A DNA stretch of 42,583 nt from Methylophaga thalassica (lineage in GTDB: Bacteria; Pseudomonadota; Gammaproteobacteria; Nitrosococcales; Methylophagaceae), in the NCBI GenBank assembly GCA_011052985.1, contig DRHY01000303.1:1-42583 (forward strand), in the 5' to 3' direction. Under the pieces are notes generated by a model. It was not told the DNA's origin and made no database searches. It saw only the letters and a list, made by a program, of their open reading frames with translations. The first letter of the stretch is position 1. Each line of letters begins with the position of its first letter. A program made the position numbers and the translations under genes. Positions 19,716 through 42,583 of this stretch are shown piece by piece.

Positions 19716-20693
19716 TTATTTACTCCCCAAATGACGAATAGATTTTACAACGTCTTTTTCGCTGAGCTCAAAAGGACTTATTGAGTTTTGATATCGAACC
19801 GGTAATGTCAGCCCTGTTTTATGAAAACCTTCACGAATATTTTCAAACGTAAGCGACGACTGCCCAGCTTTCATTGCGGTCCTAGAGGCTTCAATCATTA
19901 ATGTGGAGATATTTTCCAAATTACCGTCGGTTGTTAAATAAAGCCTAGCAAGCTCAGTCTGATTGGGGGTAAATACCGTTGTAAACTCTAGAATTTTTTC
20001 AATATCCGAAAATAGTTTTCGGATATACATTTCAAATTCTGAATCCGGGTTATCAAGATCAAATCGCATGTAATGCAGTCTCATCCGCATTTTAAAACGT
20101 GTTTTGAGCTCTGGGTTCGCATCTACGATAGCTTCAGAATCTTCAGTTCCGGCCAAAAAAATGGCTGCTTTGGTCTCGTTCACAAGACTTTTGAGCCACG
20201 ACATCACTTTAGTAAGACCTGTCCCTGTGACAATGTCGTGAATTTCGTCCAACAGAACTATGTTGGTTTCACACGTTGTAAAGAGCTCTTTTAACTGTCT
20301 TAGCATTTGATGTTCAGTAGCACGATTTGGGACTTCTTGATCAAATTCTTCTAATATGCGACCAGTCACAGATTTTGGTGTCGACATATTGGCGATACTT
20401 ACATAGATGCATGGAATAATTGTTTTATGGAGATTATTTTTGGTTACCTCTTTCGAAGGTAATGATGTTTTAACAAAGTTGCACAGTGTAGTTTTTCCCA
20501 CACCTGTAGGACCTGTTATCACTCCACACGTTGGTTTATAAGAAGAGGGTATTTTCCCCTCATTCATGGAGCGTTGCTTTCTGACAGAGAGGTAAGCAAT
20601 TTGAATCGTATCCAGCGCGTCTGCCAAAGATGGATGCTTTATATTCAATTCACGGATTTGATTTACCTTGAAATCAATTTCACTATTATTCAT
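19716..20693 (-). CDS. tnsC: TnsC/TniB-like AAA+ transposition regulator
   Basis: A 325-residue AAA+ ATPase. Walker A is GPTGVGKT (about 61-68), Walker B is NIVLLDEIHD (about 144-153), and the sensor region is IFLAGTEDSE. TnsC forms ATP-dependent filaments on DNA that link the target selector (TnsD/TniQ) to the TnsAB transposase. The start is the ATG at 20693, with GGGGAGA 5 nt upstream; the GTG three bases earlier is possible. It overlaps the end of tnsB by 8 bp and abuts tnsD, so the operon is tightly coupled. Confidence 0.88.
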   Translation of the reverse strand: MNNSEIDFKVNQIRELNIKHPSLADALDTIQIAYLSVRKQRSMNEGKIPSSYKPTCGVITGPTGVGKTTLCNFVKTSLPSKEVTKNNLHKTIIPCIYVSIANMSTPKSVTGRILEEFDQEVPNRATEHQMLRQLKELFTTCETNIVLLDEIHDIVTGTGLTKVMSWLKSLVNETKAAIFLAGTEDSEAIVDANPELKTRFKMRMRLHYMRFDLDNPDSEFEMYIRKLFSDIEKILEFTTVFTPNQTELARLYLTTDGNLENISTLMIEASRTAMKAGQSSLTFENIREGFHKTGLTLPVRYQNSISPFELSEKDVVKSIRHLGSK

Positions 20694-22608
20694 CACCGTC
20701 TCCCCATGTCATATTTTCAAAGCTGCCATTAATATCGTTGCTTAGGTTTTTAGCTGCTGATGGGGGCAGTGTTGGAGCAGGATTTACTTCAATAGTTTTT
20801 TGGGCAGCCGATTTAAGTTTTTTGAGGTTTTCGCTGTGCCTTTGTTTACGTAGTGAAGCATTGTCTTTGATCCGTTTACGAAGTTTTCTGTTAGCGCGAG
20901 ATTTTTCTTCCGCTCCAAGCTCTTTGAGTCTTTGTTCATGCTCATCTTTCTGGCGTTTAATTTCTTCTCGCTCAAGCATATACTCGTACATCGTCAAGTT
21001 CCTCGTACGATCAGGTTCCGTTGAAACTGCTTTGATTAGAGGAGCATTAGGGTCAAGTGCATTTTCAACATAGACGTGACTTAGATCGCTATTGTCAATA
21101 TAAACATGCACAGACGGATTTGCTTTTTTGTGAAGTTTTAGCGTTTCTTCAATTGCACGGAGATCGTGAGATTTATAAGTGAGATGGTCAAAACGTACTG
21201 TGCCATTATTAACTTTAACCAGTTTTACATCTCGAAGTTTAGTATTGATGACTTCTAGTGAAACTTCGTTTTCAAAACCTTTAATGTCGTCTAGCCAATC
21301 CTGCCAGGCTAGCAAAGGTGCTTGTTCGAGTTGTGTATGAATAGTTTGATGATAGTCGTCAACAACTGATCTAAAAATCTGGTTAAGCTCGTCTAAGGTG
21401 TAAATGGCTTCATTCTCTGACTCATAATCACCACGCTGTTCTGGGTTTGAAAAGGTAGCGCCACCGAGGGTATGGAAACATCTGAGGTTAAAAGTGCGAA
21501 ACACACTCTCAACAAACGGTTTGGAATTTGGCTCTTGAGTACGACAAGGCTTTACGTCACAGCCTATCGAAAGAACTGCCGATTTAAATGCATCGGTCTT
21601 ATAGTCGCTGCCATTATCCACTATCACATTGCTTATTCGCCCACCAGGCAAACCGTTATCCTGTCTGAGCGCATCTTTGAAGGTTACTAACAACGTTTCA
21701 AAGCAAAATGCTCTCAAAGATATATGAAAAGAGAGTACCGTTCGGGTTGCACGGTCGATAAAAAGCGTTAAATAGGGACGGCCTAATACTACACCCGTCT
21801 CTTCATCCACAATCATGCAATCGACAACATAGCCATCGGCTTCAACAAATTCAAGCGGAAAACCGGTATCGTGTTTAATTCCAGCAGCTCGGAGCATTCT
21901 TGCCGCTCTCTTTTTACCAAAACGTGAGTTGAGCCGATAGAAAATGTCGTAGGACATTGCTCTACGTCTGAATGAAGCATAACTTGCACGTTTAAAAGTC
22001 GTTGGAGAGCGTTCGAACTCTTCCGTATCCATCATCCTATAACGAAATTCTGCGTATGCTTCTTTAAGTGTTTCAGCTGTTCGTTGGAAATAATGCTCAT
22101 GCAAAACTTCAGAAATAATTTTCTCCTGAAGGGATGAGAAGTGAGGTTTCCGGTTCCCTTTTGCCTTGTGATTTGGGGCAAGGGCATCGAGATTATAACC
22201 AGCTTCAACAAAGCGTTTATATATTCTGGCAAAGTTAGCTGCCGACATCACCGTCACATTGTTTTCTTTACCATATCTTTCTAATAAAGGTTTTACCTTC
22301 GACTGGGAGCGCGGTGTATGTGTATGCTCTTCGACAAATTTAATTAAACTGAATACGCTATTTCGTTTAGCAATATCTTTTTCACTGAGGCCAGCATAAG
22401 AATTTAAAAATTCTTCATTTTCATGAATAAATTCTTTGGATTCCATCATTTTCAAAAAGGCTTCAGTTTTGACTTGAAGTTGGCGCCCGCCGGCAACAGA
22501 GGTATATCTCACTGTCTTTCCGGATATATGGCCAACGGTAAATTTATCTCCTTGAAATGTGAACTCATGACCGACTGCCGGTAAGTTGCTGATAGAGGCA
22601 AAATTCAT
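20686..22608 (-). CDS. tnsB: TnsB-like DDE transposase
   Basis: A 640-residue transposase with an integrase (rve) core. The DDE residues are visible: D258 (FVEADGYVVD), D331 (NVIVDNGSDYK) and E367 (NSKPFVESVF), with the 35-residue spacing between the last two that is typical of the family. N-terminal helix-turn-helix regions should bind the transposon ends. Residues about 545-605 are highly charged and probably form a coiled coil that contacts TnsC. The ATG at 22608 overlaps the tnsA stop (ATGA) and has GGAGGT upstream. It joins the 3' ends of the element to target DNA while TnsA cuts the 5' ends. Confidence 0.92.
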   Translation of the reverse strand: MNFASISNLPAVGHEFTFQGDKFTVGHISGKTVRYTSVAGGRQLQVKTEAFLKMMESKEFIHENEEFLNSYAGLSEKDIAKRNSVFSLIKFVEEHTHTPRSQSKVKPLLERYGKENNVTVMSAANFARIYKRFVEAGYNLDALAPNHKAKGNRKPHFSSLQEKIISEVLHEHYFQRTAETLKEAYAEFRYRMMDTEEFERSPTTFKRASYASFRRRAMSYDIFYRLNSRFGKKRAARMLRAAGIKHDTGFPLEFVEADGYVVDCMIVDEETGVVLGRPYLTLFIDRATRTVLSFHISLRAFCFETLLVTFKDALRQDNGLPGGRISNVIVDNGSDYKTDAFKSAVLSIGCDVKPCRTQEPNSKPFVESVFRTFNLRCFHTLGGATFSNPEQRGDYESENEAIYTLDELNQIFRSVVDDYHQTIHTQLEQAPLLAWQDWLDDIKGFENEVSLEVINTKLRDVKLVKVNNGTVRFDHLTYKSHDLRAIEETLKLHKKANPSVHVYIDNSDLSHVYVENALDPNAPLIKAVSTEPDRTRNLTMYEYMLEREEIKRQKDEHEQRLKELGAEEKSRANRKLRKRIKDNASLRKQRHSENLKKLKSAAQKTIEVNPAPTLPPSAAKNLSNDINGSFENMTWGDGDE

Positions 22609-23300
22609 ACAGCACCTCCAATCATGCTTACATAGGCATTTTTTACGGAATGGGGGGCTATATTGCTTTTAAGGATCCCTTGGGCAATGAGTTGAATAAT
22701 AACGATAGAATCAAATCCCAGTGATTCGACGAAATCCCTGACATCTAAGAGCTTTGCTGTTTTTATATCTTGCTTTTTTAGCGCTTGGTAACACGCTTCC
22801 ATGTCCGCTGGACTGACTGGTTTTCCCCGCATCAGGTGATACACAAAGTTTTGCGTTATCAATACTTTTTTAGAAATGTCAGCTTCCGTAAATATTTCAA
22901 AGTCCACGCCATGCTTATTGCAGTATTGCGTCACTACCTCAAATTTTTCTTTATATTTTGAGGATTCTGCTTCAGCTAAACGTTTTGCTTCTCGGATTTT
23001 ATAAAGCCCATTTTTGCATTTGACGAGAAAATCGGGGGTGTAAGAAAAATCGTCAAATTTCAGCTTGAAAGGTTGTGGCCTGTAACTTTCCACCGCATTT
23101 TCAAATTCCATATGCATGCAAAGATGCTTTTCTAAATCTGATTCACAAGCGATATTTGCTCGGTTTTTTATGCTGTGCATAAACCAGACGTTTTTGAACA
23201 TTTCGCCATGTTTGAACTTTCGCACGCCCTGATATATGCCAAATCGTCTTGGACGCTCATATGCTTCATCAATTAACTGTTTTAATTCATTTTTCACCAT
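22605..23300 (-). CDS. tnsA: TnsA-like endonuclease subunit of the transposase
   Basis: A 231-residue restriction-endonuclease-fold protein. Catalytic residues equivalent to those of Tn7 TnsA are present: E57 (ESDLEKHL), D90 (YTPDFLV) and K106 (KIREAKR). The C-terminal winged helix region follows. TnsA makes the 5' cuts, giving cut-and-paste movement. The ATG at 23300 has GGGAG 7 nt upstream. It is the first gene of the operon, transcribed from the promoter shared with the divergent hsdS-like gene. Confidence 0.9.
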   Translation of the reverse strand: MVKNELKQLIDEAYERPRRFGIYQGVRKFKHGEMFKNVWFMHSIKNRANIACESDLEKHLCMHMEFENAVESYRPQPFKLKFDDFSYTPDFLVKCKNGLYKIREAKRLAEAESSKYKEKFEVVTQYCNKHGVDFEIFTEADISKKVLITQNFVYHLMRGKPVSPADMEACYQALKKQDIKTAKLLDVRDFVESLGFDSIVIIQLIAQGILKSNIAPHSVKNAYVSMIGGAV

Positions 23301-23400: not shown

Positions 23401-24111
23401 ATGAGTGAGACACTATTAAAAAATGTGGCTGAGATAAGTTCAGGTCGGGGCTTCAAAGAGGGGGTAAAGCCCAGCAATCAAGGGGTTTATGTTTTAACTG
23501 TGGCAGATGTTAGCGGTGATACTAAAAAAATTAATTGGCAAGAAGTTAAAAAATCAGACATTACCTTGCGTTCCCATAAATCACTTCACAATGGTGAAAT
23601 TGTTTTTTTAGCAAAGGGCAAGTTAAACAAAGCAAGAGTTGTTAGTGGATTAGATGGAGTGGCGGTGGCAACACACCACTTTTTTGTGATAAATCCAGTT
23701 AATACTGTCGACAGTTACTATTTGGCAATGAAGCTCAACAGCGAAGAAGCATTAAAATATTTTTTTGATAATGCTCGAGGGGGAGCAAAACAGCACATCA
23801 CTAAATCAGCACTCGGGCAATTTAAGCTATCTATTCCTCCCATAGAAGAGCAACGATTAATAGTTCAAATGATCGAACAAGTCGATAATCAAGTTATACA
23901 TGTTCAAAATTATCGATCTTTGTTTCGTAAAGCCTGTAACTTTCTGATTGAGGGAAAACTTGATGAATCAGAGAGGATTCTGATTGAAATGCGTGATGCT
24001 TATGACAGCGAATTTCATACTGATATAGAGCAATTTTATGCATTATTACGGCGTAAGAAACTCGAATCGGCCGATGAAGTTAAAGGTAAACGAAAGTTAA
24101 ATCGTATCTGA
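23401..24111 (+). CDS. Half-length HsdS-like specificity protein (single target-recognition domain)
   Basis: A 236-residue protein resembling one half of a type I restriction HsdS subunit. It has an N-terminal target-recognition domain (VAEISSGRGFKEGVKPSNQG, then LVVADVSGD-like and LHNGEIVFLAKGKLNKARVV) and the conserved region ending PIEEQRLIVQMIEQVDNQV, which forms the spacer helix. Full HsdS proteins have two such halves and about 400 residues; half-length forms can dimerise. No hsdM or hsdR is in the window, so it is an orphan. The C-terminal 60 residues (ERILIEMRDAYDSEFHTD) are extra and not recognised. AAGGA precedes the ATG. It is divergent from tnsA with overlapping promoters. It may regulate DNA binding or work with a methylase elsewhere. 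Confidence 0.68.
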   Translation: MSETLLKNVAEISSGRGFKEGVKPSNQGVYVLTVADVSGDTKKINWQEVKKSDITLRSHKSLHNGEIVFLAKGKLNKARVVSGLDGVAVATHHFFVINPVNTVDSYYLAMKLNSEEALKYFFDNARGGAKQHITKSALGQFKLSIPPIEEQRLIVQMIEQVDNQVIHVQNYRSLFRKACNFLIEGKLDESERILIEMRDAYDSEFHTDIEQFYALLRRKKLESADEVKGKRKLNRI

Positions 24112-29164: not shown

Positions 29165-29355
29165 TAGGAGCGGATACAAGATAAAGTCTGTGCTAACCGA
29201 GATGAAGACAGACAAGATGTGTTCAATTATATTGAAATGTTTTACAACACCAAACGGTGGCTTGGTTTCATTAAACAGTTTTCACTGGTAGAGTTTGAGA
29301 ACGATTTACGAAGCGGTTGTTTAGTGTCTAAAAAATCAGTGGAGATTAAGTATGT
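29165..29355 (+). pseudogene. IS3-family transposase remnant (OrfB C-terminus) with a probable right end
   Basis: One frame reads RIQDKVCANRDEDRQDVFNY then IEMFYNTKRWLGFIKQFSLV and EFEND. This is the end of an IS3-type OrfB (normally ...YIE.FYN..RRHG....SPV.FE). The rest of the gene is missing. About 20 bp later, tgtctaaaaaatcagtggag resembles the right terminal repeat of IS3 elements. No left end is found. In 29000-29421 I see no other gene; a hairpin with arms CAACAA/TTGTTG lies at about 29068-29091. Confidence 0.65.
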
Positions 29356-29421
29356 GCGATATAACCGGGGTAGCCAGCTAAGACTATGGAACAGCAGACA
29401 CATAATAGATGTTTTAACTAA

Positions 29422-31170
29422 ATGGCACCAAAAGCTAAACCTCATCGTGATATTGGCGAAGCCCGTGCACTAATTCATCTTGCGATGAGTGTATTCTGGG
29501 ATGAAAAAACGCGAGACCTTCCTACTCACTACCCAAGACCCCAGCTTCCGTCTTTTGAAGGGCTGACAGAACTGTCTAAAATTAGTTCAGAGGCGAATAC
29601 TTCTGCAAGAAAGTTGGGTTCTGACTTGTCAAAATTGAGCTTGATCGAAGCTGGTTATGAGATTGGTAAAGAATACACCCACCTATTGCCATCAGATTAT
29701 CGGTCACAGCATGGAATCTATTACACTCCCCCAGCAGTAACTAATAGGCTCATAGAGCAGGTCGAAAAACACGGTGTTAATTGGCTTAGCGCATCTGCTA
29801 TTGATCCAGCCTGTGGTGGAGGGGCTTTCCTTAGCCCAGTTGCTATCCGTATGAAAAAAGCATTATTTGATGCAGGTTATAGCAGTGATAAAATTATCAA
29901 GCACATTACTAGCCACTTAAAAGGGTATGAAATTGATCCATTTTCGGGCTGGTTATCTCAGACATTATTTGAAATGTCACTAATGCATGAGATTGCTGAC
30001 ACTGGTATCAAAATTCCAAAAATCGTTTGTATTGGCGATACTCTAAAACTCAACAAAAATGAGACTTTTGATGTAGTAATTGGGAACCCTCCATATGCTA
30101 AAGTGAAACTTGACCCAGAACTGAAGACACTTTACGGACGCTCCGTTTTTGGTCATGCAAACTTATATGGTCTATTTACTGATAAGGCTTTGAAGTTATT
30201 AAAGCCCGGAGCTATTTTAGCTTTTGTCACACCGACATCTTTTCTGTCAGGCCAATACTTCAAGCGTTTGAGACATGTTCTATCTTCTGAAACAGATGTG
30301 CTAAGTATAGATTTTATAAGTGCTAGGAAAGGGGTTTTCCATGGAGTACTCCAAGAGACGGTGCTTGCTTGCTTTAAGAGCCTGAAGTCTGATAAATCAA
30401 AAGCTACGTCTGCAACAATTCATATCGATGCGAGCCAAAAATATATTGTTACAGAAAATGGGGAATGTTCAATTGAGCCAAGTATGGATAAGCCTTGGTT
30501 AATTCCACGCGATTCAGATCAAGCTGTTTTACTCAACGATTCTGAGGACAACTTCGCCTACCTAAAAGATTATGGGTATACCGTTTCAACTGGTCCTCTC
30601 GTCTGGAATAGACACAAGCAGCAGTTACGGGAGAAGAAGCAAAAGGGCGCTTTTCCTCTCATTTGGGCCGACTCTATCTCGTCTGATGGGCAATTTGTTC
30701 TGAAGCCAAATAAAAAAAGCCGTCCAAGATGGGTGATGATTGACTGTAGTCGTGAAAAGCACCTTCTATGTAATGTGCCATGTCTACTAATGAAACGAAC
30801 AACGGCAACGGAGCAAACAAACCGTCTCAATGTTGGCATAGTTGAAAAAAATATTCTTCAACGCTTTGGTGGGGTTAGTGTTGAAAATCACTTGAATATC
30901 ATTCGTCCATTAGATGGCATTGAGCCATTAGTCTCACTGGAGACTCTTCGTTATATACTTATGAGCAGACCAGTAGACAAATTATTCCGGGCTATGAATG
31001 GTTCTGTAGCAGTATCGGCCTATGAGCTCAATGCATTGAGGATGCCGACGTTAACATTTGCAAAAATGTTAGATCAGGCCTTGCAATCGGGGGCAAATAA
31101 TACACAGTTAGATGAGCTGCTTGATATAGCCTATTCCTCAACTAATTTGTCAGATATTCATGCTGCGTAA
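29422..31170 (+). CDS. N6-adenine-type DNA methyltransferase of the DISARM locus (DrmMI-like role)
   Basis: A 582-residue gamma-type N6-adenine methyltransferase. The AdoMet motif is DPACGGGAFL from residue 128, a second motif is GYEIDPFSGWLS, and the catalytic NPPY is at 222-225 (VVIGNPPYAKV). The C-terminal half (about 330-582) looks like a target-recognition region similar to Eco57I/TaqI-type enzymes. In DISARM the methylase marks host DNA as self. An adenine methylase is the hallmark of class 1 systems (drmMI). The ATG at 29422 has a poor ribosome site and lies just after the IS3 remnant, so the native promoter may be lost or IS-derived. A gap of about 190 bp separates it from drmE. Confidence 0.78.
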   Translation: MAPKAKPHRDIGEARALIHLAMSVFWDEKTRDLPTHYPRPQLPSFEGLTELSKISSEANTSARKLGSDLSKLSLIEAGYEIGKEYTHLLPSDYRSQHGIYYTPPAVTNRLIEQVEKHGVNWLSASAIDPACGGGAFLSPVAIRMKKALFDAGYSSDKIIKHITSHLKGYEIDPFSGWLSQTLFEMSLMHEIADTGIKIPKIVCIGDTLKLNKNETFDVVIGNPPYAKVKLDPELKTLYGRSVFGHANLYGLFTDKALKLLKPGAILAFVTPTSFLSGQYFKRLRHVLSSETDVLSIDFISARKGVFHGVLQETVLACFKSLKSDKSKATSATIHIDASQKYIVTENGECSIEPSMDKPWLIPRDSDQAVLLNDSEDNFAYLKDYGYTVSTGPLVWNRHKQQLREKKQKGAFPLIWADSISSDGQFVLKPNKKSRPRWVMIDCSREKHLLCNVPCLLMKRTTATEQTNRLNVGIVEKNILQRFGGVSVENHLNIIRPLDGIEPLVSLETLRYILMSRPVDKLFRAMNGSVAVSAYELNALRMPTLTFAKMLDQALQSGANNTQLDELLDIAYSSTNLSDIHAA

Positions 31171-31358
31171 AATTAGATTAGGCTAAATTTGAATAAGATT
31201 ATGATTATGATGTGGATTCTTATGTCTTTGTTTTTACTAGTCTCACAGCTTTAGTTAAATTGCTTTTCCTTGATCTTAGTGATTAAGTGTGTCAATTTCC
31301 GTTAATATTTGATAGTTCAGCATCATGCCGGACAGGGAAAGTGTTAGGTAGAAATGAA

Positions 31359-33968
31359 ATGCCTTTTGAGAAAGAAAAACCAAGATTTACCCCAGTTGAG
31401 CCCGGAAGTAATGCAATAACGTCTAGAATAAGAGATTATGCAAAGGTTGTAGTCAGCGGCCAACATTGCTCTAGGGATGTATGTGAGCTTACTGAGGCAT
31501 ATCAAAATCTCTCAAAACATATTCATGTGGCTTCTAACCACCCACTAATAGACCTAATTCTTAGTTGGCCCAATGATTTAAACATACCATCAGCTAGTGC
31601 GATATTACTGAATAGGGCATTACATCATCAAACATTGAGCCATGATCAGGTTAGGGTATGTGTCTACCCGTATACGATTAGAGAGGACAGAGACCTTGGT
31701 TCAATCCGCTTTCGTGGAGATAGTATTAATGCTGAAATTCAGTCGACCTACCAATCACTCCAGGAAAACCCACATCAACCTTTTAACGAACACCTACGTG
31801 ACCTAACAAGCATAAATCATTTGGATGATGACGCCACCTCAAGAGATATACCATTCAATGAGCTTATGGGATTATTTTCGTGGAAAGATGATCATTGGCA
31901 ATCTTCAAAGGAAAAGTATCTTGAAGAACTCCGCTTAGCTATCTTAAGAAGTATTAAAGATAAGAATGATCAAGATAGGTTTCAAAAGAAAGAGCTCCTG
32001 GATCACGCAAAGTTACGCACGGTTCACCATGAAGATTATCCTGTCCTATACCGCTTAATAAGAACTTGGTCACCAGAGAAAGTACTTCCAGTCCTCACTA
32101 ATAATCAAAAATACTTCGATGTTTTAGTTCTTGATGCAAGACATGTGATGCTTAAAACACATCAAGGCTGGATAAAAAATGTTGCGAAGCTAATCAGTAA
32201 TTTCGACAAAAATGACCAGAAGTCCTCTGTCGTTGTTTTGACTGAAGACATAGAAATCTATCAGCGTTTGGAATATGCGATTCATCAGTATCGTGATGGT
32301 GATAGTAAAAAGCGTTTTGAGCAACATTGTTGGTACAAACCTGAACCAGGGATGTTCAAGAATGACAACTTATCTAAGGAGCAGCGACGTTTTTCACACT
32401 TCAACGCTACAATTATTGGCAGTCATTATCTTTCTAGTCTATCCAAATTAGAAGATTTAGCTAAAGCTACAACTAGTAGTGAATTAAGAACCCTGATTTA
32501 CAGGACAATTCAGTTTCTTGCCAGAATTCTTAATACTCCGGTGCCTCAAAGAGATGTGAATCGCTTGATACTTGAAATGATCAACGATCGAAGAATGGAG
32601 CGTGAGGGACAACGCCTTGGACGCTTTGTGTCATGGGATCTTTTTAGAGCCGATATTAATCATCATGCTATTACATACAAATTGAATGAGGATCCAACTT
32701 TTCACGGCTATATGACCATCGCCACAGAGTTAGTTGCACAAGTTCATGAAGACCCTCCCTTGGCGAAACACCTAAAAACTATTCTTGAAAATGACTCTAG
32801 TAAGCGGTTATTGATAGTTATTGATCAACATTGTCTGGGGCTCGAACAGATAATTACAGAGTATCTAACTTCTTTGATAAAAGCAGATAAGGAAGTCAAA
32901 GTTCTTCACAAACACCGCCTATGTGGACAGTTAGCATGGGCAGATCACATTATTTATGCAGGTATGAATGAAGGAACTCTGAAGTCTTTAATTACTTTGG
33001 AGTCAGACAAAGCTCGTGTGACTTTATTGGCTCATGCATATGTAAGTTTCAAGTTGGAGAGACACTTACGTTTTATAACTGAGAGAAATGCTTTCTCTCA
33101 GTTGCACCTTCGGGCGAATCAGTTATTAGAGGAAATAGGTCCACAAGTCCAATCCATACGTTTAAATCAAAACGAGATTTTATTACCCAATGATTTAGTT
33201 TTCACTTCGCAACATCCAACTCATTCATCGAGTAATGGGGATAGTCATTATGCAGATGTAATGCTTGAGGATTATGGCCTTCTGGATGTTGGTAAAAACT
33301 CTAAGATTCTTCGAGCTACGCCCAAAAGTGTACTTCCTTTTGAATTGATAACGGTTAATCAGCTTAGGGAAGGAGATGAGATATGTCTGACAGAGGAAAT
33401 TAGTTTAGATGGATTTATCGATAAAGCCATCAGCGGGCGAACTAAAAAGGCTAGCACTGTACTCCAAGATTATTTCAACCTTGCAGCAGATGGCATTAAG
33501 AAAAATTTCTTGCATGCCTCCCATCGCAGAATCGCTGAAGCGGTTAAGCAAAGAATGTTTCAGCTAAACCCCGTAATTGCTGAAAGCGTGGGTATCCAGA
33601 GCTTGATTAATTGGATAGAGAATATCTTTCTTAATAGTGAAGGTATATCTTCAGAGATTCGTACAGTATCTCCACGTGATAAAGATGTGTTCTTGTTATT
33701 CACTCAAGCGCTTGAAATATATCCACAAATGGCGGAACAGTTTTGGGCTCTGGGAATACGTAACCTTCGATCGGCTCGCGTATTAGAAGGGCGACAGTTT
33801 TACCAGAACATCAAGCATATACTGACAAGTCACTATATTGATGGCGCTGATATAGAAGGGTTGAGTATGGAAGACCACGCCGAGTTGATAGGTATGGCAA
33901 ATCACTGCTGCTATCAGGTTGAGACAATTCACATACAAGGCATAGAAATAGCTACATATAAGGACTGA
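31359..33968 (+). CDS. drmE: DrmE-like large DISARM protein, unknown function
   Basis: An 869-residue protein directly before drmA (1 bp gap), in the place and size range of DrmE, the uncharacterised large protein of class 2 DISARM. I prefer the ATG at 31359 (MPFEKEKPRF, TAGGTAG 8 nt upstream); a GTG at 31287 would add 24 residues. It has no Walker A. Two segments look like worn helicase cores. The first is FDVLVLDARHVMLK at about residue 253, with D259-A-R-H262 where SF2 enzymes have DEAH, followed by SSVVVLTED like motif III. The second is LLIVIDQHCLG with LERHLRFITERNAFSQL further on. The helicase-like reading is tentative; the DrmE assignment rests mostly on context. Confidence 0.65.
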   Translation: MPFEKEKPRFTPVEPGSNAITSRIRDYAKVVVSGQHCSRDVCELTEAYQNLSKHIHVASNHPLIDLILSWPNDLNIPSASAILLNRALHHQTLSHDQVRVCVYPYTIREDRDLGSIRFRGDSINAEIQSTYQSLQENPHQPFNEHLRDLTSINHLDDDATSRDIPFNELMGLFSWKDDHWQSSKEKYLEELRLAILRSIKDKNDQDRFQKKELLDHAKLRTVHHEDYPVLYRLIRTWSPEKVLPVLTNNQKYFDVLVLDARHVMLKTHQGWIKNVAKLISNFDKNDQKSSVVVLTEDIEIYQRLEYAIHQYRDGDSKKRFEQHCWYKPEPGMFKNDNLSKEQRRFSHFNATIIGSHYLSSLSKLEDLAKATTSSELRTLIYRTIQFLARILNTPVPQRDVNRLILEMINDRRMEREGQRLGRFVSWDLFRADINHHAITYKLNEDPTFHGYMTIATELVAQVHEDPPLAKHLKTILENDSSKRLLIVIDQHCLGLEQIITEYLTSLIKADKEVKVLHKHRLCGQLAWADHIIYAGMNEGTLKSLITLESDKARVTLLAHAYVSFKLERHLRFITERNAFSQLHLRANQLLEEIGPQVQSIRLNQNEILLPNDLVFTSQHPTHSSSNGDSHYADVMLEDYGLLDVGKNSKILRATPKSVLPFELITVNQLREGDEICLTEEISLDGFIDKAISGRTKKASTVLQDYFNLAADGIKKNFLHASHRRIAEAVKQRMFQLNPVIAESVGIQSLINWIENIFLNSEGISSEIRTVSPRDKDVFLLFTQALEIYPQMAEQFWALGIRNLRSARVLEGRQFYQNIKHILTSHYIDGADIEGLSMEDHAELIGMANHCCYQVETIHIQGIEIATYKD

Positions 33969-33969
33969 G

Positions 33970-36900
33970 ATGACTGTAAAAGTGGATCTTAATGACAAGA
34001 GCCGGATAACTGAGAACCTCAAAGAGGCTGTGGCAGAGTCAATACTAAATGGGCTTTATCAGCGTGCAGCAGGAATTGGTGAGTTTGGCCTTCATGTCGT
34101 CGATAAGAAACCTTCGCAACGTTTTGTTTCAGGCTTTATTGAGAGTTTTGGGCTCGCTAAAAGCTTATCCAATGATGTTGATGCAAGTGTAAATCCAATT
34201 CACATCATATCCCATGGATTTGATGTCGAGATGAATAAGAAGAGAGGAAAAGTCACCGTAACACCGTCTTTTTCAATTTATCTCAGGGTCTTGCCAAGAG
34301 TGGAGGATTTAATTAATCATCCGACTCAAATATCCCTGACAAACAATGCACAAGATTTACTCTACGACAAAATCAATGTTCACGTAGAAAATTACAAGAG
34401 GGACCATCCACTACCTGATAAAAAAAACGAACCAGCAACTGATGCTTGGTATAAAGGCATGGCGGATGTGCGTACTAAAGCAATGCATGAGTCCTTGATA
34501 GAAGTTTTGGGTGAACGAATTTCCCAAACAAAAACTGCTGATGTCGAAGTTGATGAAAACCAGAAACTTGAAAATCTAGCGGCAAAAGAGGGTGAAGATA
34601 AATCCTTAACTGACACAGTAAATACAGGAGACCAAGAAGATCAGGAGCAAGCAGGGAGGGATATATTCGCATTTGTTGTTCGTCCTGGTGACTCTCTCAA
34701 TTTAAAAGACGAGCTTTTTAAAGAAGTACCTCCCTTGCAGAGATGGCAGAGACTTGACCTCCATGACTTACCTAGATTGGAATTTTATGCAGACGATGAC
34801 GCCAGCGTAATTCAGAAAAATCTCATTACATACAATACTCAGATTAATTCAAGAATTAGCGAAAAAATAAGAGTATGGCTGCACGATGACTCAGAAACTG
34901 GTGGAAGAAAGTGGGCTTTCCCTAAGAGGTTGAGGGTCACACCTTCGGACATCATCAATTGGCCCAAGAAACTAGAAGATATACGTAAGAACATTCATCA
35001 GACACCTGATGGACCAAGCACAATGGCGATACCAGAGCTCACATTTGCGATTGTTGCTGAAATATACGAAACAATGGATAGGCACTTAAGACAACCGTTT
35101 CGTCAAATGCGGTTAGCCGTTGAAAATCGAACTGAATCAGGTGACCCATTTGATGCTGAAACCGAGCAGGCATTATTCCAGATCCAACTACAAGCTCTAA
35201 TTGAACGAGAAGCACATAAACCAGTTAACTTGGGACGTGTGAAGCCTTCGTATCAATATAGCAACTACCTGCAATATCCCGCTATCGGGTTCAATAGTGG
35301 CTTGAAGTACGCAAAACATAGCGATGCTGTCTTGATTGAGTCGGATTGGATGCCGACGTATCGACAGCCCCGAATCAGACCGAGACCATATCCCTCCGTA
35401 CCTGTTAAGTTTTCTGAGCTTGTCTCAGAAAGTGGGATTCAACGGCTTGTAACTATTCAAGATGAATTTCTCAAATGGATTGAGAAAGCAAAAATTGAAT
35501 CAAAAAGTAAACTATTTGGCAGTAATGAGTTAGAAACGCGAAACGAAGAAGATAAGTTTGAGCGTGATGTTGATTCATGGAAGAAAGAAGCTGAAATGAT
35601 TCAGCTAGGCGTAGAGCTTCTCATTAGATCCCTCAAGGCCTTCAAGGACAAACCTGAGAGTCCTGAAGCTATACCTTACATTGCTTGGAAATGTCTGAAC
35701 GAGACAATGTTACTTGCCGGTAAAGACAAGGGCTTTGATAGTTGGCGTCTTTTTCAGATCGCTTTCATTTTGGCCAATATTAGCGGAATAACCTCTCGAA
35801 TGGGTATCTTCCAGGGCTTATTTGATAATGATTGGGATGATAGTGTAAGTCTTTTGTATTTTGCTACTGGTGGCGGTAAGACGGAGAGTTTTTTTGGTCT
35901 TTTGATATATAACCTCTTCCTTGACCGTTTACGTGGCAAAAAGCATGGCGTGACAGCAATGATTCGCTACCCGTTAAGGCTTCTCACTATTCAGCAGGCA
36001 CAGCGTCTTGCTAAGACTTTAGCTTTCGCCGAGAGGGTTAAACGCAACAACTCTATTCCTGGTGATCCTTTTGCGATAGGTTTTTGGGTAGGTAGCAGCA
36101 ACACACCTAATAATCCTGGTGGATATACTGACAGACAGGTACCGGACATTATGTCCGGCCTAAATGATAGCAGTAGCGATGAAGAGTATAAGCGCGCGAA
36201 TGAAAACTGGAACAAATTGCCAAAGTGTCCTTTTTGTAAAGGAGATACTGTCCTGCGCTCATTCAAATGTGCAGAGCAAAGTGGAGGCAAATTATTAGGA
36301 CATGTCTGTAAATCAGCACCCAACGATTGTGATTGGAATGCATGGAATAGCCATTCAGTTACTCCACTTCCGCTGTATGTTGTTGACACTGATATTTACC
36401 GGAAAGCTCCAGCTGTTGTGCTGGGCACAGTGGATAAGTTAGCTCTAATTGCAAACCGTCCCGGCACTATGCGGAAGGTGTTTGGCATGCTAGGGACAGC
36501 TCCGTTTCGTAACGAAAATACTGGCGATTTGGTCTTTTACAAAACGCCTTCAGAGATTGCAGATCTGGAAGCCAATTTCAAGCATCTGAAACCCTTCTAT
36601 AACAACGGGGAGAATTATTTCCATGATCCATTCCCATCACTGATTATTCAGGATGAGGCTCATTTGCTCGAAGAGTCGCTGGGGACATTCTCTGGATTAT
36701 TTGAGACCGCATTTGAAAAAATGCTCGAAGAGATGGCAACACAATGTCCAGATCTTAGGCAAATTGTAGCTATAACAAATCAAGGTAATATTCGTATGCC
36801 TAAAATTGTTGCTGCTTCAGCAACGGTAACAGAGCCAAGGCGTCAAATGCAGGGGCTCTATCAGCGTGATGTAGTTCAGTTTCCAGCTCCGGGTCACAAG

Positions 36901-38241
36901 CTCTATTACAACTTCTATGCAGAACCGGAGTTATCTGAAGTTGAAGATCGAGCTGAATTAGATGATATTGAGTTGGCGGCAAAAACAGCTCGAATCTATA
37001 CATCAATTCTTACAAATGGAAGACCGCACACCAGTGCCAGTGTTGAACTAATTGGCTACTTTCATTTAACTATCACCATCTTGATGGATTCGCTATGCAG
37101 TGATGACCCATCTGTAGCTTATTCCGCTAAACAAGAAATGAAAGCAATACTCACCAACTCTAGTTCGCCTCATAAAGAGCGTTTCATAGAAGAAATTGAT
37201 GTTGCTGATAATTCATCCCTCGCAACACTAGTTGATCTTCATCGTATTGCATTGACATATGTGACTAACAAAAAAGGTGGTGATCAAATTCAAGCAGCTG
37301 AAGGTGATATCGCAAGTCGTATTCACGATGAGGCTGGTCATCCAATTGAAGGAATTGGTTGCGCCTTGATTAGTGGTGCTGTAAGTGCTGGTGAGATTGA
37401 GGCTGTTATTGCTCGTGCAGAAGAGCGTCCACGAGCAGGGGAAAAGTTTGAGGATATTCATTCAGAGAGCATATTGCGTTCTGTTGTAGCCACATCAGCA
37501 ATTTCACATGGTGTAGACGTTGACGAGTTCAACAGCATGTTCTTTGCAGGTATGCCCTCTGTGGCGGCAGAGTATATTCAATCATCATCCCGTGTTGGGC
37601 GCACCCACGTTGGCTTATCTGTCTTGATACCAACGCCACAGCGAAGGAGAGATCGATACGTTGCGGAAACACACGATCAGTATCACAGATTCTTAGAAAG
37701 AATGATTCGACCAGCCCCCGTTAATCGTTGGGCTGAGAATGCAATTATTCGTACTTTGGCCAGTATGATATTAGGCTACTTCATCATCATCGAAGAGACT
37801 ATTAAGGCAATTAATTTGCCAGTAAGTGATAAGAAAGATGCCGTAAATATGGATAAATTGAGCCAGATAAGGAAATTAAAGATCCAACGTGGGGAGACAG
37901 AGCTAGTGAGAACTCTAGAAAACTTTGTTTTCGATGCTACAGGTCTCAATCATCCAGACTTCTATCCCTCAGCTGTAAATGAAATAAAGGGGATTATTCG
38001 TGATGAGCTCAGATACTTCTATAATTTCCTTTTCAAAGATAGCCCTGACATTACAGACATATGGAGTGCCTATGAGGATATGGAGATAAAAACTCGTAAC
38101 CGAAAAATTACACCTATGACTTCTTTGCGAGATGTGGATCCTGCCGGATTTCTTAAATACGTCAAGGAGACCAACAAGTCACCTGACGCCAGGAGCAATG
38201 CAGTATTAATGTCACTGATCAGAAAAAGAGGGCAGGCATGA
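33970..38241 (+). CDS. drmA: DrmA, DISARM SF2 helicase-domain protein
   Basis: A 1423-residue protein. The helicase motifs are clear: motif I FATGGGKTESFF with K637, motif II QDEAHLLEESL with D895-H898, and motif VI QSSSRVGRTHVG near residues 1204-1214. A four-cysteine zinc cluster (CPFCKGD...C...C) is inserted near residues 752-795 between motifs I and II. The N-terminal 560 residues are DISARM-specific, with an acidic low-complexity stretch around 185-225. DrmA and DrmB form the DNA-binding core complex that loads on and blocks incoming unmethylated phage DNA. The stop overlaps the drmB start by 4 bp, and AAGGACTGAG precedes the ATG. Confidence 0.9.
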   Translation: MTVKVDLNDKSRITENLKEAVAESILNGLYQRAAGIGEFGLHVVDKKPSQRFVSGFIESFGLAKSLSNDVDASVNPIHIISHGFDVEMNKKRGKVTVTPSFSIYLRVLPRVEDLINHPTQISLTNNAQDLLYDKINVHVENYKRDHPLPDKKNEPATDAWYKGMADVRTKAMHESLIEVLGERISQTKTADVEVDENQKLENLAAKEGEDKSLTDTVNTGDQEDQEQAGRDIFAFVVRPGDSLNLKDELFKEVPPLQRWQRLDLHDLPRLEFYADDDASVIQKNLITYNTQINSRISEKIRVWLHDDSETGGRKWAFPKRLRVTPSDIINWPKKLEDIRKNIHQTPDGPSTMAIPELTFAIVAEIYETMDRHLRQPFRQMRLAVENRTESGDPFDAETEQALFQIQLQALIEREAHKPVNLGRVKPSYQYSNYLQYPAIGFNSGLKYAKHSDAVLIESDWMPTYRQPRIRPRPYPSVPVKFSELVSESGIQRLVTIQDEFLKWIEKAKIESKSKLFGSNELETRNEEDKFERDVDSWKKEAEMIQLGVELLIRSLKAFKDKPESPEAIPYIAWKCLNETMLLAGKDKGFDSWRLFQIAFILANISGITSRMGIFQGLFDNDWDDSVSLLYFATGGGKTESFFGLLIYNLFLDRLRGKKHGVTAMIRYPLRLLTIQQAQRLAKTLAFAERVKRNNSIPGDPFAIGFWVGSSNTPNNPGGYTDRQVPDIMSGLNDSSSDEEYKRANENWNKLPKCPFCKGDTVLRSFKCAEQSGGKLLGHVCKSAPNDCDWNAWNSHSVTPLPLYVVDTDIYRKAPAVVLGTVDKLALIANRPGTMRKVFGMLGTAPFRNENTGDLVFYKTPSEIADLEANFKHLKPFYNNGENYFHDPFPSLIIQDEAHLLEESLGTFSGLFETAFEKMLEEMATQCPDLRQIVAITNQGNIRMPKIVAASATVTEPRRQMQGLYQRDVVQFPAPGHKLYYNFYAEPELSEVEDRAELDDIELAAKTARIYTSILTNGRPHTSASVELIGYFHLTITILMDSLCSDDPSVAYSAKQEMKAILTNSSSPHKERFIEEIDVADNSSLATLVDLHRIALTYVTNKKGGDQIQAAEGDIASRIHDEAGHPIEGIGCALISGAVSAGEIEAVIARAEERPRAGEKFEDIHSESILRSVVATSAISHGVDVDEFNSMFFAGMPSVAAEYIQSSSRVGRTHVGLSVLIPTPQRRRDRYVAETHDQYHRFLERMIRPAPVNRWAENAIIRTLASMILGYFIIIEETIKAINLPVSDKKDAVNMDKLSQIRKLKIQRGETELVRTLENFVFDATGLNHPDFYPSAVNEIKGIIRDELRYFYNFLFKDSPDITDIWSAYEDMEIKTRNRKITPMTSLRDVDPAGFLKYVKETNKSPDARSNAVLMSLIRKRGQA

Positions 38242-40472
38242 TTGATTACGAAGAAGATGAAAAATTTAGTGGGCCTATGATGCAGCGTACCAAAGCGCAA
38301 CTCGGGACTGCCTATGCCCCTGGAGCCATCTTTACCTTCGAGAGTAACCTAGTGATATGTAGGTCAAAACCGGCTTCAAGTTACACAAACGAGCAAATGA
38401 ACGGTTACGCTAAAGATCTCATACTCATGTCGATTGATGAGGTGATGACGAAATGGTTAGAAGCAGGGATGCGGATAACCGACTCTGAAATAAAGATTGA
38501 ACCTGAGATGTGCATTGATCCTAATGCACTTAGAGATAATAAATCACGTCTTACTGAGGCCAAAGCATTGTTTGCTTTTGCTCAGCCCTCTCAAATGGGC
38601 TATGAACCTGATCTATTGAGTTTCGTATGTACCCATTGCCGCGATATGCGTAATTTCAGTAGCTTACGTAATTTTGAGCAACATTCAAAAGGACTAGCAA
38701 AGTCCTGTGAAGCACGAGATGACGGGGGAGCATGTAGCTGGCAACAGCTAGATATAGTCTTTATTCACCCGAATGGTAACTACACTGCTCCATTGCCATA
38801 CATCAGGAAATATGATGAAAAAAACGGTATGGTCACAGGACTGCGAAGATGTAACTGTGGTTCCTATGAGGTGAAGTTGATTCGACATGGAGCTCAGATC
38901 GGTAAGTACAGGTTACGTTGTGCTGAATGCAAAACAATCAGAACTGGTCGGAGCGAGTTTTGGCTTCAAAATGACAAGGAATACCTAGAGCTCATAAAGA
39001 CAAGAGCAAATGAGCATCCATATTTCGCTCGAATGAAGCCGATTTCAGCTCGCTCAAACTCAGTTTTCTATGCCAGAACAGATATGGTCATAGATTTTAG
39101 TGGTGAAGATGAAAAGCTAGAAATGATTAGCTCTAATAATAACGTCAGAATCACACAATGGCTGGCAGAAAAATTCGAATTGCCTGTGACAAAGGTCTCT
39201 GAGGGGGAAATGAAAAAAGCAGTCACAGAAGCATTGGGCGTCGAAGCATGGAGAGATTACGAAGGTCGTTTGAAGGCGCTTGATATGCAGCGTAAATACC
39301 TTGATATGATGAGTGAGCAGGAAAAGGAGTTTCTCAGGCTTACCATTATTGACATTGAAGAAAAATTAAATCAGATCGAACGTGAATGGGAAAAGCAAGG
39401 CGTAATCAAATCTGAAACCGCCATTCCAGAATCTATCAGAGAAATGCTAAACAATCGTCGAGATTATTTTGCCCCTAAATATGATCCGTTTCGACTTTCT
39501 GCCGAATATGATGTTTTGAAGGATAAAGTCATTACCACTGCACTGATGGAGAATGGCCTGGCTCACTACACAGCTCTCGACAAACTTGATGAGCATATCG
39601 GTCCAGATGACCCGGAACTGAGGGAACAACTTAAATCAGATCACCGAAAAATAATGGATCAAATTGGGATCGAAGATATGGGACTCGTTCGTGATTTTAG
39701 AACGATTACATATTCATATGGTTACACTCGAGTTGCAGCCACTCCCGTAACTTCTTACATCAACGACAAGCCAGTGCCAGTTAGGTTGAGACTCTTTGAA
39801 AAAACAAAGTTTACTAACCTTACTCATCAAAGACACCCAATTTTTGTATTGAATCAATCAAATGAAGCAATCTACGTAAAACTCAATGAAGTAAATGTTC
39901 GAAGTTGGATAGAGTCATTAGATACGAGTGAAAAACTGACAGATGAACTAATAGGTCTTCAATATCTCAAGAACATAAAGCCTATGTCACAGTACTTGCC
40001 TGAGATCCACACTACTGGTGAAGATAAGCCAGCAATGTCTCTGGCAATATATACACTGGTACACACATATGCGCATCACGTGATGAATGCTGTAAGTGAA
40101 TATTCAGGCCTTGGAAGCGGTTCTCTATCTGAGTATCTATTTCCAGGTGATCTTAGCTTTGTCATTTACCGAAAAGGTATGACGATGGATATGGGGAATT
40201 TGACCTCAATAATCAGGAATAATGCCCCTGCTTTTCTGGAGTACTTACATACACCTAGAAATTTAAGTTGTGGTTCTGGCTCACTCTGTACCAGTCGCGG
40301 AGGTGCTTGTCCTGACTGTTTGCTTATCCATGAAATGAGCTGTATCGCACAAAACAACTTGCTTTCAAGAAGTGTTTTGATAGGAAACGGACATCCAGGT
40401 AAGTATGGGTTTAAAGAACCTATTCCGGGTTATCTCGAGATAGCCTTCAAGGCTTACCATGCTAAAAACTGA
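38238..40472 (+). CDS. drmB: DrmB, DUF1998-domain DISARM protein
   Basis: A 744-residue protein with the DUF1998 C-terminal domain: TLVHTYAHHVMNAVSEYSGL at about 610-630, then CGSGSLCTSRGGACPDCL at about 677-695, with conserved cysteines. Further cysteine pairs lie at FVCTHCRDM (about 130) and RRCNCGS...CAEC (about 205-230), so several zinc sites are likely. The middle (about 340-400) is charged and probably coiled coil. DrmB partners DrmA in the core complex. The ATG overlaps the drmA stop (ATGA), and the 3' end overlaps drmC by 14 bp. Confidence 0.9.
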   Translation: MIDYEEDEKFSGPMMQRTKAQLGTAYAPGAIFTFESNLVICRSKPASSYTNEQMNGYAKDLILMSIDEVMTKWLEAGMRITDSEIKIEPEMCIDPNALRDNKSRLTEAKALFAFAQPSQMGYEPDLLSFVCTHCRDMRNFSSLRNFEQHSKGLAKSCEARDDGGACSWQQLDIVFIHPNGNYTAPLPYIRKYDEKNGMVTGLRRCNCGSYEVKLIRHGAQIGKYRLRCAECKTIRTGRSEFWLQNDKEYLELIKTRANEHPYFARMKPISARSNSVFYARTDMVIDFSGEDEKLEMISSNNNVRITQWLAEKFELPVTKVSEGEMKKAVTEALGVEAWRDYEGRLKALDMQRKYLDMMSEQEKEFLRLTIIDIEEKLNQIEREWEKQGVIKSETAIPESIREMLNNRRDYFAPKYDPFRLSAEYDVLKDKVITTALMENGLAHYTALDKLDEHIGPDDPELREQLKSDHRKIMDQIGIEDMGLVRDFRTITYSYGYTRVAATPVTSYINDKPVPVRLRLFEKTKFTNLTHQRHPIFVLNQSNEAIYVKLNEVNVRSWIESLDTSEKLTDELIGLQYLKNIKPMSQYLPEIHTTGEDKPAMSLAIYTLVHTYAHHVMNAVSEYSGLGSGSLSEYLFPGDLSFVIYRKGMTMDMGNLTSIIRNNAPAFLEYLHTPRNLSCGSGSLCTSRGGACPDCLLIHEMSCIAQNNLLSRSVLIGNGHPGKYGFKEPIPGYLEIAFKAYHAKN

Positions 40473-41316
40473 GCATCTAACAAATGTAGCAAAACATCTT
40501 GGGGCTGATGTTAGATATGGCATGGATATAATCAAGGTTCTTCGTAGAAACGAAAGTAATTCCTACACAGATTATGTGCTGATGTTCGACTTGCATCACG
40601 AGCATCGAACTTCACATCGTCGTGCTCTGGACAAGCTGATTAATGCAGGAGTTTTCAGCTTAAACTCTTCAAAAGGCCTGTATTTTTTAAACTGGCAATA
40701 CGATGAGCTTCCACTTCTAATATCATTTTTAGAGGGAGTGAATTTTAATCACTCTCAGGTACCAGAACTTGATGATGAACTGGTTATTTCTTTTCCTGCG
40801 GGTGGTAAGTTAGAGGCTGCAGCCGAAACAGCTGGTTTTTTGCGTAACAAATTGACCCTCACCCTACCAACTTTTGAAGAAATGGCGATTTCTTCAGAGC
40901 AATCATTGACTGTTATGACGCCTTTCCTTGATAAGCATGGAGTCCTGCACATAATTGATCTATTCAGTCGATGTGATGATGACATTGAAAAGAACCTCAT
41001 ACTGCGTTTTCTAGATGTTGACAGTGAACACAAGCAATATCAGAGGGCATATCACAGATATTCGCGAGACTTAGCGGACTTAGGGGTCAATGTCTTTAAC
41101 TTTTGCCTAGATAGAGAATCTAGTAGTCTGAAAGAAACTTTCCATGCGAAGATTATTAGCTGTGATGATGCAATGGCTTACATTGGCTCTGCAAATATGA
41201 ATCAACATTCTTTTTCGGGTTCGATGGAAATGGGTGTACTGGTACGTGATAGTAAAGCAAAGACATTGGGCAAATTACTGAGAATCATTCGCAAATTGAG
41301 TAACAACGTAAATTAG
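40459..41316 (+). CDS. drmC: DrmC, phospholipase-D-fold DISARM nuclease
   Basis: A 285-residue protein with one PLD motif of the form H-x-K-x4-D-x6-G-S-x-N: H229, K231, D236, G243, S244 and N246 (HAKIISCDDAMAYIGSANMN). A single motif means it works as a dimer, as is usual for DrmC. PLD-fold nucleases cut DNA. In studied DISARM systems drmC is often dispensable, and its role is accessory. It overlaps drmB by 14 bp and ends the operon. Confidence 0.9.
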   Translation: MLKTEHLTNVAKHLGADVRYGMDIIKVLRRNESNSYTDYVLMFDLHHEHRTSHRRALDKLINAGVFSLNSSKGLYFLNWQYDELPLLISFLEGVNFNHSQVPELDDELVISFPAGGKLEAAAETAGFLRNKLTLTLPTFEEMAISSEQSLTVMTPFLDKHGVLHIIDLFSRCDDDIEKNLILRFLDVDSEHKQYQRAYHRYSRDLADLGVNVFNFCLDRESSSLKETFHAKIISCDDAMAYIGSANMNQHSFSGSMEMGVLVRDSKAKTLGKLLRIIRKLSNNVN

Positions 41317-41598: not shown

Positions 41599-42583
41599 CT
41601 AGTCCCACTTAAGACCACCACCGGTTTGATACTCGGTGACCTTGGTTTCGAAGAAGTTCTTTTCTTTCCGCATATTAGCTTGTTCATCGAGCCAGGGCAG
41701 GGTGGCTTCGGCGCCTGGGAAGGGTTCTTCAAAGCCTAGCTGTTTCGCTCTACGGTTTGCTGTGTAGCGGAACTGGCCATGATGCACTTCTTTTGAGTAA
41801 CCTAAGATTGGGTCTCGCAAAATGTAGCCCGCGTAAATTTCTTCAGCGGCATCGGCTTCTTCAAACATTTTTTGGACTTTAGCTGGGTCCAAAGTAATGT
41901 TTTCTTCTTTCATGATCTGTTTACAGACACGAATACCGAACGAGGCGTGCATAACTTCGTCACGCATGATGTATTGCAATTGTTCGGCGGTGCCTTTCAT
42001 TAACCCACGGCGTTGCAGTGCAAAGATTGGGCTGAAACCGTTATAGAACCATGAACCTTCGAAGATGCCAGCAAAGAACGCGTAAGACATAACGAAGTTT
42101 TCTAGCTCGTCACGGTCACGCAGATCAATATCACTACGCATGACGGTGCTTAAACGATCATTAGCCAATTTAATCTTTTGGTAAATCTCTGGCACGACAC
42201 GGTAGCGATTGTAGATTTCTGATTGATCCAAACCAATGGTTTCGATGCAGTGCTGGTATGTCCATGTGTGCAAGGCTTCCTCATACACTTGGCGTGCTTG
42301 ATAGATTTGCAGTTCTGGTGCAGTCATTTTTTCCATTACCGCCAGACCAATATTACGCATAGCGAGGATATCGGAGGTAGTCAGGTATGACAGTACGTTT
42401 TCATAGACATGACGTTCTTCCAGCGTCAGTTTATGACGATAGTCATGAACGTCTTGCGCCATATTAATATCAAGCGGTGTCCAGTGGTTCTTGTTGGCAT
42501 TAAGGAAGTAATTCCATGCCCAAGGGTATTTGAACGGTGCTAATTGATTGATATCCGCTTCACCGTTAATAACGCGTTTGTCG
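41599..42583 (-). CDS. nrdB: Ribonucleotide reductase class Ia beta subunit (5' end outside window)
   Basis: The minus-strand frame is open to the right edge and gives about 328 residues, so the N-terminus is missing. ADINQLAPFKYPWAWNYFLN is visible upstream of the first internal Met at 42462. Radical-site features are present: EALHTWTY (Glu-x2-His-x3-Tyr, the metal ligands and radical tyrosine) and RDEVMHASFG (Glu-x2-His). NrdB houses the diferric-tyrosyl radical that passes to NrdA for making dNTPs. The C-terminal tail ends GGGLKWD, expected to dock on NrdA. This is a core chromosomal gene and anchors the right side of the accessory region. Confidence 0.92.
   Translation of the reverse strand, partial: DKRVINGEADINQLAPFKYPWAWNYFLNANKNHWTPLDINMAQDVHDYRHKLTLEERHVYENVLSYLTTSDILAMRNIGLAVMEKMTAPELQIYQARQVYEEALHTWTYQHCIETIGLDQSEIYNRYRVVPEIYQKIKLANDRLSTVMRSDIDLRDRDELENFVMSYAFFAGIFEGSWFYNGFSPIFALQRRGLMKGTAEQLQYIMRDEVMHASFGIRVCKQIMKEENITLDPAKVQKMFEEADAAEEIYAGYILRDPILGYSKEVHHGQFRYTANRRAKQLGFEEPFPGAEATLPWLDEQANMRKEKNFFETKVTEYQTGGGLKWD

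Follow-up and report, generated by a model that had tools for sequence, protein, structure and literature searches.

In the known DISARM systems as defined by the PADLOC rules, type I needs DrmD and the methylase DrmMI, and type II needs DrmE and the methylase DrmMII (PMC9252829). In class 1, DrmA and DrmB make up a helicase complex with a preference for 5' single-stranded overhangs, and unmethylated DNA stimulates its ATPase; DrmAB is required for defence in known DISARM, and DrmC is apparently non-essential (PMC9142583). A survey of the YprA helicases names ARMADA, BRIGADE and TALON and treats DISARM as marked by a helicase gene that is separate from the DUF1998 gene; in ARMADA an OB-CON-DUF1998 module and a nuclease are fused to the helicase, accompanied by a BrxHII-like helicase and a PglX-like methylase (PMC12458937, preprint). 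The operon described here lies in a stretch of 42,583 nucleotides from Methylophaga thalassica (hereafter the window). It bears the DISARM mark, because its SF2 helicase DrmA and its DUF1998-module protein DrmB are encoded by separate, adjacent genes, and it satisfies neither the type I nor the type II rule of PADLOC. We think it probable that this operon is complete and belongs to a third DISARM class, working by the mechanism proposed below. No published description of such a class was found in the open-access literature, a scope that does not include the founding DISARM paper; with this reserve, the class appears to be new as a version of DISARM, DISARM itself being known.

With regard to the described systems, the locus can be set beside class 2. 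Both have separate DrmA and DrmB genes, DrmC and a DrmE relative directly before drmA, both are without DrmD, and the window DrmA aligns to class 2 DrmA over nearly its full length. On the other hand, class 2 uses the 5-cytosine methylase DrmMII where the window has a PstI-type N6-adenine methylase, the DrmE-like protein of the window is beyond the reach of DrmE models, and its DrmA forms a separate clade. The DrmA/DrmB/DrmC core and an adenine-type methylase are shared with class 1, while the SNF2 helicase DrmD is missing and a short PstI-type methylase stands in place of DrmMI of 1350-1450 aa. In ARMADA, too, a single operon encodes both a YprA-family helicase and an adenine methylase, but the ARMADA fusion, BrxHII-like helicase and PglX-like methylase are all absent from the window locus. 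Finally, PstI/BsuBI type II restriction-modification systems hold the closest relatives of the window methylase, which differs from them in having no partner endonuclease in the genome and in being tied to a DISARM core.

The operon consists of five plus-strand genes lying side by side in the order methylase, DrmE-like, DrmA, DrmB and DrmC, and our check of order, coordinates and strand agreed with the preliminary description. The genes drmA, drmB and drmC overlap or almost touch, and a gap of 188 bp separates the methylase gene from the DrmE-like gene; a promoter and terminator scan of the locus gave signal only at chance level. The operon is flanked by nrdB (41599-42462, minus strand), which is kept in nine genomes of the same genus. 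The similarity of these nine relatives ends at the 3' end of nrdB, pointing to an insertion site and to the operon as a recent arrival. The same window contains Tn7-like transposition genes (17637-23300, minus strand), namely those for TnsA-like (22605-23300), TnsB-like (20686-22608), TnsC/TniB-like (19716-20696) and TniQ/TnsD-like (17637-19715) proteins, all on the minus strand. The DISARM operon is probably outside this element, since the outer end of the element is expected just right of tnsA. Just upstream of tnsA there is also a lone type I restriction specificity (Methylase_S) protein (23401-24111, plus strand).

DrmA (1423 aa; 33970..38241, plus strand) carries the helicase motifs TGGGKTE at residue 633, QDEAH at 894, SAT at 950 and SSSRVGR at 1205. 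DrmB (744 aa; 38238..40472, plus strand) has a DUF1998-type cysteine cluster (C678, C684, C691 and C694), and DrmC (285 aa; 40459..41316, plus strand) is a phospholipase-D-type nuclease with one HKD motif (HAKIISCD at 229, GSAN at 243). That the locus is of DISARM type, as first described, was upheld by matches of all three proteins to DISARM models of PADLOC (E 1e-89 for DrmA, 1e-11 for DrmB and 1e-9 for DrmC), though the matches are weak and their NCBIfam scores lie far below the curated cut-offs (351 against 950 bits, 49 against 240 and 47 against 133, respectively). The assignment of DrmC is accompanied by a match to PLDc_2 and by the NCBIfam model DrmC_I (E 3e-12, under its curated cut-off). 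Moreover, the solved DrmA structure 7s9v matches the window DrmA with an E value of 6e-79, and DEAH or DEMH is present in 77 of 80 DrmA homologues.

When a tree was built from helicase cores, every member sampled fell into one DrmA clade apart from classes 1 and 2 (SH-aLRT 100). With distant YprA proteins as outgroups the clade persists (95) beside class 1 plus class 2 (90), in a tree where the outgroup branches are very long, one reaching a length of 10. The window DrmA thus falls inside neither the class 1 nor the class 2 branch. We claim three deep lineages and no branching order, because the YprA outgroup branches are too long for it. This placement, together with a methylase other than DrmMI and the conservation of the five-gene set across several phyla, speaks against the initial view of the locus as a patchwork mixing class 1 and class 2 parts. 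The noted absence of DrmD stood, as no match above the curated cut-off was found in the window or in the draft genome, which is 93% complete.

The methylase (582 aa; 29422..31170, plus strand) has motif I DPACGGG at residue 128 and motif IV NPPY at residue 222, in agreement with its earlier description as an adenine-type enzyme with NPPY. Its Pfam matches are Eco57I and N6_Mtase and its PDB matches are adenine methylases such as TaqI; judging from these motifs and similarities, it is of the gamma-class N6-adenine type. Its assignment to the class 1 type failed. The best PADLOC model is PDLC03338 (E 1e-184), DrmMI models are absent among the 25 PADLOC matches listed, and the nearest relatives are methylases of the PstI/BsuBI type. 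Two plasmids encode true class 1 DrmMI proteins, of 1378 and 1457 aa, which match the PADLOC DrmMI models with an E value of 0, and only the shared catalytic core aligns between them and the window methylase, which is not DrmMI. A tblastn search of plasmids with the methylase gave 184 records, and all five near relatives inspected directly precede a BsuBI/PstI endonuclease. The window methylase is 39-43% identical to the PstI/BsuBI-type methylases, and 35-38% in the target-recognition half. PstI methylases modify adenine in CTGCAG; whether the window methylase marks such a PstI-like site is only a guess at this level of identity in the target half. Neither the BsuBI/PstI endonuclease (PF06616, BsuBI_PstI_RE) nor a 5-cytosine methylase (PF00145) had any match in the draft genome.

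The history of the methylase seems to be separate from that of the other genes. In the methylase tree, the window enzyme groups with the five restriction methylases and the methylase of one sister operon, L065 (bootstrap 99, SH-aLRT 98), and the methylase of another, L015, lies outside this group. For the DrmE-like protein, DrmA, DrmB and DrmC, by contrast, the window has its nearest relative in L015. A constraint holding the five restriction methylases together was only just rejected (AU p 0.048). Since the methylase groups with the restriction enzymes while the other four genes stay nearest to L015, exchange of methylases between PstI-type restriction systems and the DISARM operon is likely, in one direction or the other, and such an exchange is apparently how the window acquired its copy. 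An apparent C-terminal remnant of an IS3-type transposase (29219-29473, plus strand) extends into the beginning of the methylase gene and might mark how the methylase was exchanged. Given this kinship with restriction enzymes, the methylase may protect against something else.

The DrmE-like gene (31359..33968, plus strand) has two possible starts, ATG at 31359, giving 869 aa, or GTG at 31287, giving 893 aa. The preliminary description had called the product DrmE-like and made its reading depend on a match of the 869-residue protein to DrmE models. Literally, the outcome was negative: the protein matched no PADLOC, NCBIfam or Pfam model, DrmE models included, and direct HMM search for DrmE gave nothing in the protein and five homologues. 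DrmE models also had no match in the whole draft genome, and no members of DrmE_fam were found in the 150 genomes searched in the phylum. A tblastn search with a cyanobacterial DrmE recovers only itself, indicating that DrmE evolves too fast for BLAST, and the DrmE-like homologues are highly divergent, with a median pair identity of 19% versus 40% for DrmA. Profile-profile comparison reversed this outcome. When a profile of 59 DrmE-like homologues was compared by hhalign with one of seven proteins preceding drmA in class 2-like loci, the probability was 97.3% (E 2.1e-11), and the 350 aligned columns all belong to the C-terminal half. Restricting the templates to three, including both annotated, PADLOC-matched DrmE proteins, gave an E value of 3.8e-7; one template DrmE was itself confirmed by model (E 1.8e-122). 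Ten or more hhalign controls, among them reversed DrmE, DrmA, DrmB, DrmC, the methylase, DrmD, DrmMI and UvrD, remained below 1%, and in HMM search the best DrmE reached 27 bits against about 8 for the top of some 2,400 decoys. The N-terminal halves of the DrmE-like protein and DrmE gave no alignment in profile-profile comparison. From this profile match with its negative controls and the decoy-beating score we conclude that the 869-aa protein is a remote DrmE relative, with homology detected in the C-terminal half only, so that the name DrmE-like is retained in this restricted sense.

An AlphaFold (AF2) model of the DrmE-like protein from 59 sequences (pLDDT 82) predicts a two-RecA SF2 fold followed by a DrmE-related C-terminal beta/helical part. 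Residues 16-600 of the model resemble two-RecA SF2 helicases, with modest matches: Foldseek finds RIG-I (E about 1e-6, TM under 0.4), and VIA-align finds XPF (Z 10.5) and Hef (Z 10.3) at an rmsd of 7-10 Å; XPF is a pseudo-helicase. A search of a viral structure library returned generic helicases only. Walker A was found by motif search in none of 77 DrmE-like homologues, which have a nearly invariant Trp-Pro where the strand preceding the expected P-loop ends. At the Walker B strand they commonly carry an aspartate, followed by Ala, Leu or Met in place of Glu; residues were assigned to these helicase motif positions by the order of secondary structures, not by residue-level superposition. Similarly, pattern search found neither Walker A nor Walker B in the seven class 2-like proteins. 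The SF2-like predicted fold, in combination with the missing Walker A and catalytic glutamate, suggests that the DrmE-like protein is probably a pseudo-helicase whose SF2 core has lost the ATP-binding motifs. A Hint/intein-like beta fold in the C-terminal part (about residues 630-680 and 851-859) was considered as well, and its similarity is too weak to claim (E 0.01 to an intein by sequence, Foldseek E >0.1, Z 6.0 over 66 residues).

To see how the operon is distributed, 84,980 species genomes were scanned with a DrmA alignment, and the best 80 of 304 DrmA relatives were kept. Of these 80, 63 have flanks of 5 kb or more on both sides of drmA and were examined by iterated HMM searches in all reading frames. 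The methylase, DrmE-like protein, DrmA and DrmB occur together in all 63, and this arrangement is far from chance; the earlier suggestion of a subtype that pairs a DrmE-like protein with an adenine methylase is borne out by the same loci. The order methylase, DrmE-like, DrmA and DrmB is kept in 57, and the methylase is downstream in six, in two of them inverted. DrmC is recognisable in 52. After DrmB, ten of the 11 loci without it have no HKD protein of similar size; one of the 11 (L008) is disrupted by insertion sequences. Catalytic motifs are preserved across the homologues (NPPY or NPPF in 73/73 methylases, Walker A in 80/80 DrmA, HKD in 59/63). Pairwise identities correlate with those of DrmA (Spearman 0.71 for the methylase, 0.81 for the DrmE-like protein and 0.80 for DrmB), with significance at the lowest value that 300 permutations permit. 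The hosts are mostly Pseudomonadota, and also Acidobacteriota, Thermodesulfobacteriota and Ignavibacteriota. By tblastn the operon was also found on plasmids of Rhizobium, Mesorhizobium, Sphingomonas, Polaromonas, Afipia and Sinorhizobium, where public annotation reads N-6 DNA methylase, hypothetical, helicase, hypothetical and phospholipase D. In an independent, even sample of 398 Pseudomonadota genomes, the DrmA clade is present in three besides the window's own and is sharply bounded, as scores drop from at least 1432 bits in the clade to at most 215 for the next helicases.

Some other loci touch on this comparison. DrmE-like proteins with amino-type methylases also occur outside the clade, as in a Streptomyces plasmid with a weak DrmE match and a DPPY methylase. 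In plasmids of Actinomycetota (L014:5991-10687 and L012:5971-10451) a DrmE-like protein and an amino-type methylase (DPPY, DUF1156-like) lie beside DrmA, DrmB and a PLD protein; class 2-like DISARM thus has a further type of methylase in these two loci. Additional DISARM-related arrangements are DrmA-DrmB pairs that lack DrmC and DrmE (L097:3655-12749, L098:1812-14007 and L103:1-13517) and are accompanied by UvrD-like or AAA proteins, and in L103 by a NERD-domain protein.

A true hybrid, in which class 1 DrmMI replaced the cytosine methylase of a class 2 DISARM, was the preliminary reading, and it would account for a DrmE relative adjoining an adenine methylase with no DrmD. However, the methylase is a 582-aa PstI-type enzyme instead of the long DrmMI, DrmA branches with neither class as its own deep clade, and the gene combination, conserved across several phyla, looks ancient and fixed and no local swap. 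This explanation is largely refuted already, and we regard it as very improbable. If the methylase were a stray, or belonged to a separate restriction-modification system, and had come to lie next to a DISARM core without a methylase of its own, this would fit the 188-bp gap, as well as the fact that the window copy is nearer to restriction methylases of the PstI type than to the methylase of the sister operon L015. This is unlikely, because each of the 63 well-flanked sister operons has a homologous methylase, 57 of them at the same place, and no PstI-type endonuclease was found in the genome; the exchange substituted the methylase of the operon and added none.

It is just as unlikely that the operon is a conserved gene set for DNA processing or of mobile elements with no anti-phage role. 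Its occurrence on plasmids and near transposition genes could be taken in this sense. On the other hand, DrmA, DrmB and DrmC are homologous to those of tested DISARM, the methylase motifs are intact, and the spread is sporadic (one of 24 genomes in the host genus). Moreover, some sister operons adjoin genes of defence type (AbiE, toxin-antitoxin and type I restriction genes). An anti-phage function of the operon is what we infer.

In the proposed mechanism, the methylase would mark host DNA at adenine, most likely at a PstI-like site in view of its kinship. By homology with class 1 DrmAB, DrmA and DrmB may form a DNA-loading helicase complex, which would engage phage DNA that is unmethylated or has single-stranded ends and block the entering DNA. 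The DrmE-like protein is expected not to be a motor, since the P-loop and catalytic glutamate are lost; the model and motifs suggest an ATP-independent scaffold or a partner of DrmAB that binds DNA ends or forks. In our reading this protein would be essential to the system, because of its position before drmA, its correlation of 0.81 with DrmA and its presence in every sister locus, and the rapid divergence of its sequence points to contact with phage-driven targets. DrmC may cut DNA in an accessory role, as ten of the 63 sister operons stop after DrmB. The methylase gene would be exchangeable with those of PstI-type restriction systems. More tentatively, and with rather less than even confidence, we propose that this is a fixed and widespread third class, in which an exchangeable type II methylase of the PstI type marks self, an ATPase-dead SF2 pseudo-helicase of the DrmE family stands in the place of the active class 1 helicase DrmD, and any methylation mark suffices together with DrmAB and a helicase-like partner.

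If the explanation given here is right, a third class of DISARM is common and escapes current annotation tools. A helicase core without ATP motifs would be the first structural idea for DrmE, and would make the roles of DrmE and DrmD comparable. Moreover, a methylase that can be swapped with an ordinary restriction methylase would allow a direct test of whether DISARM needs a particular mark or any mark.
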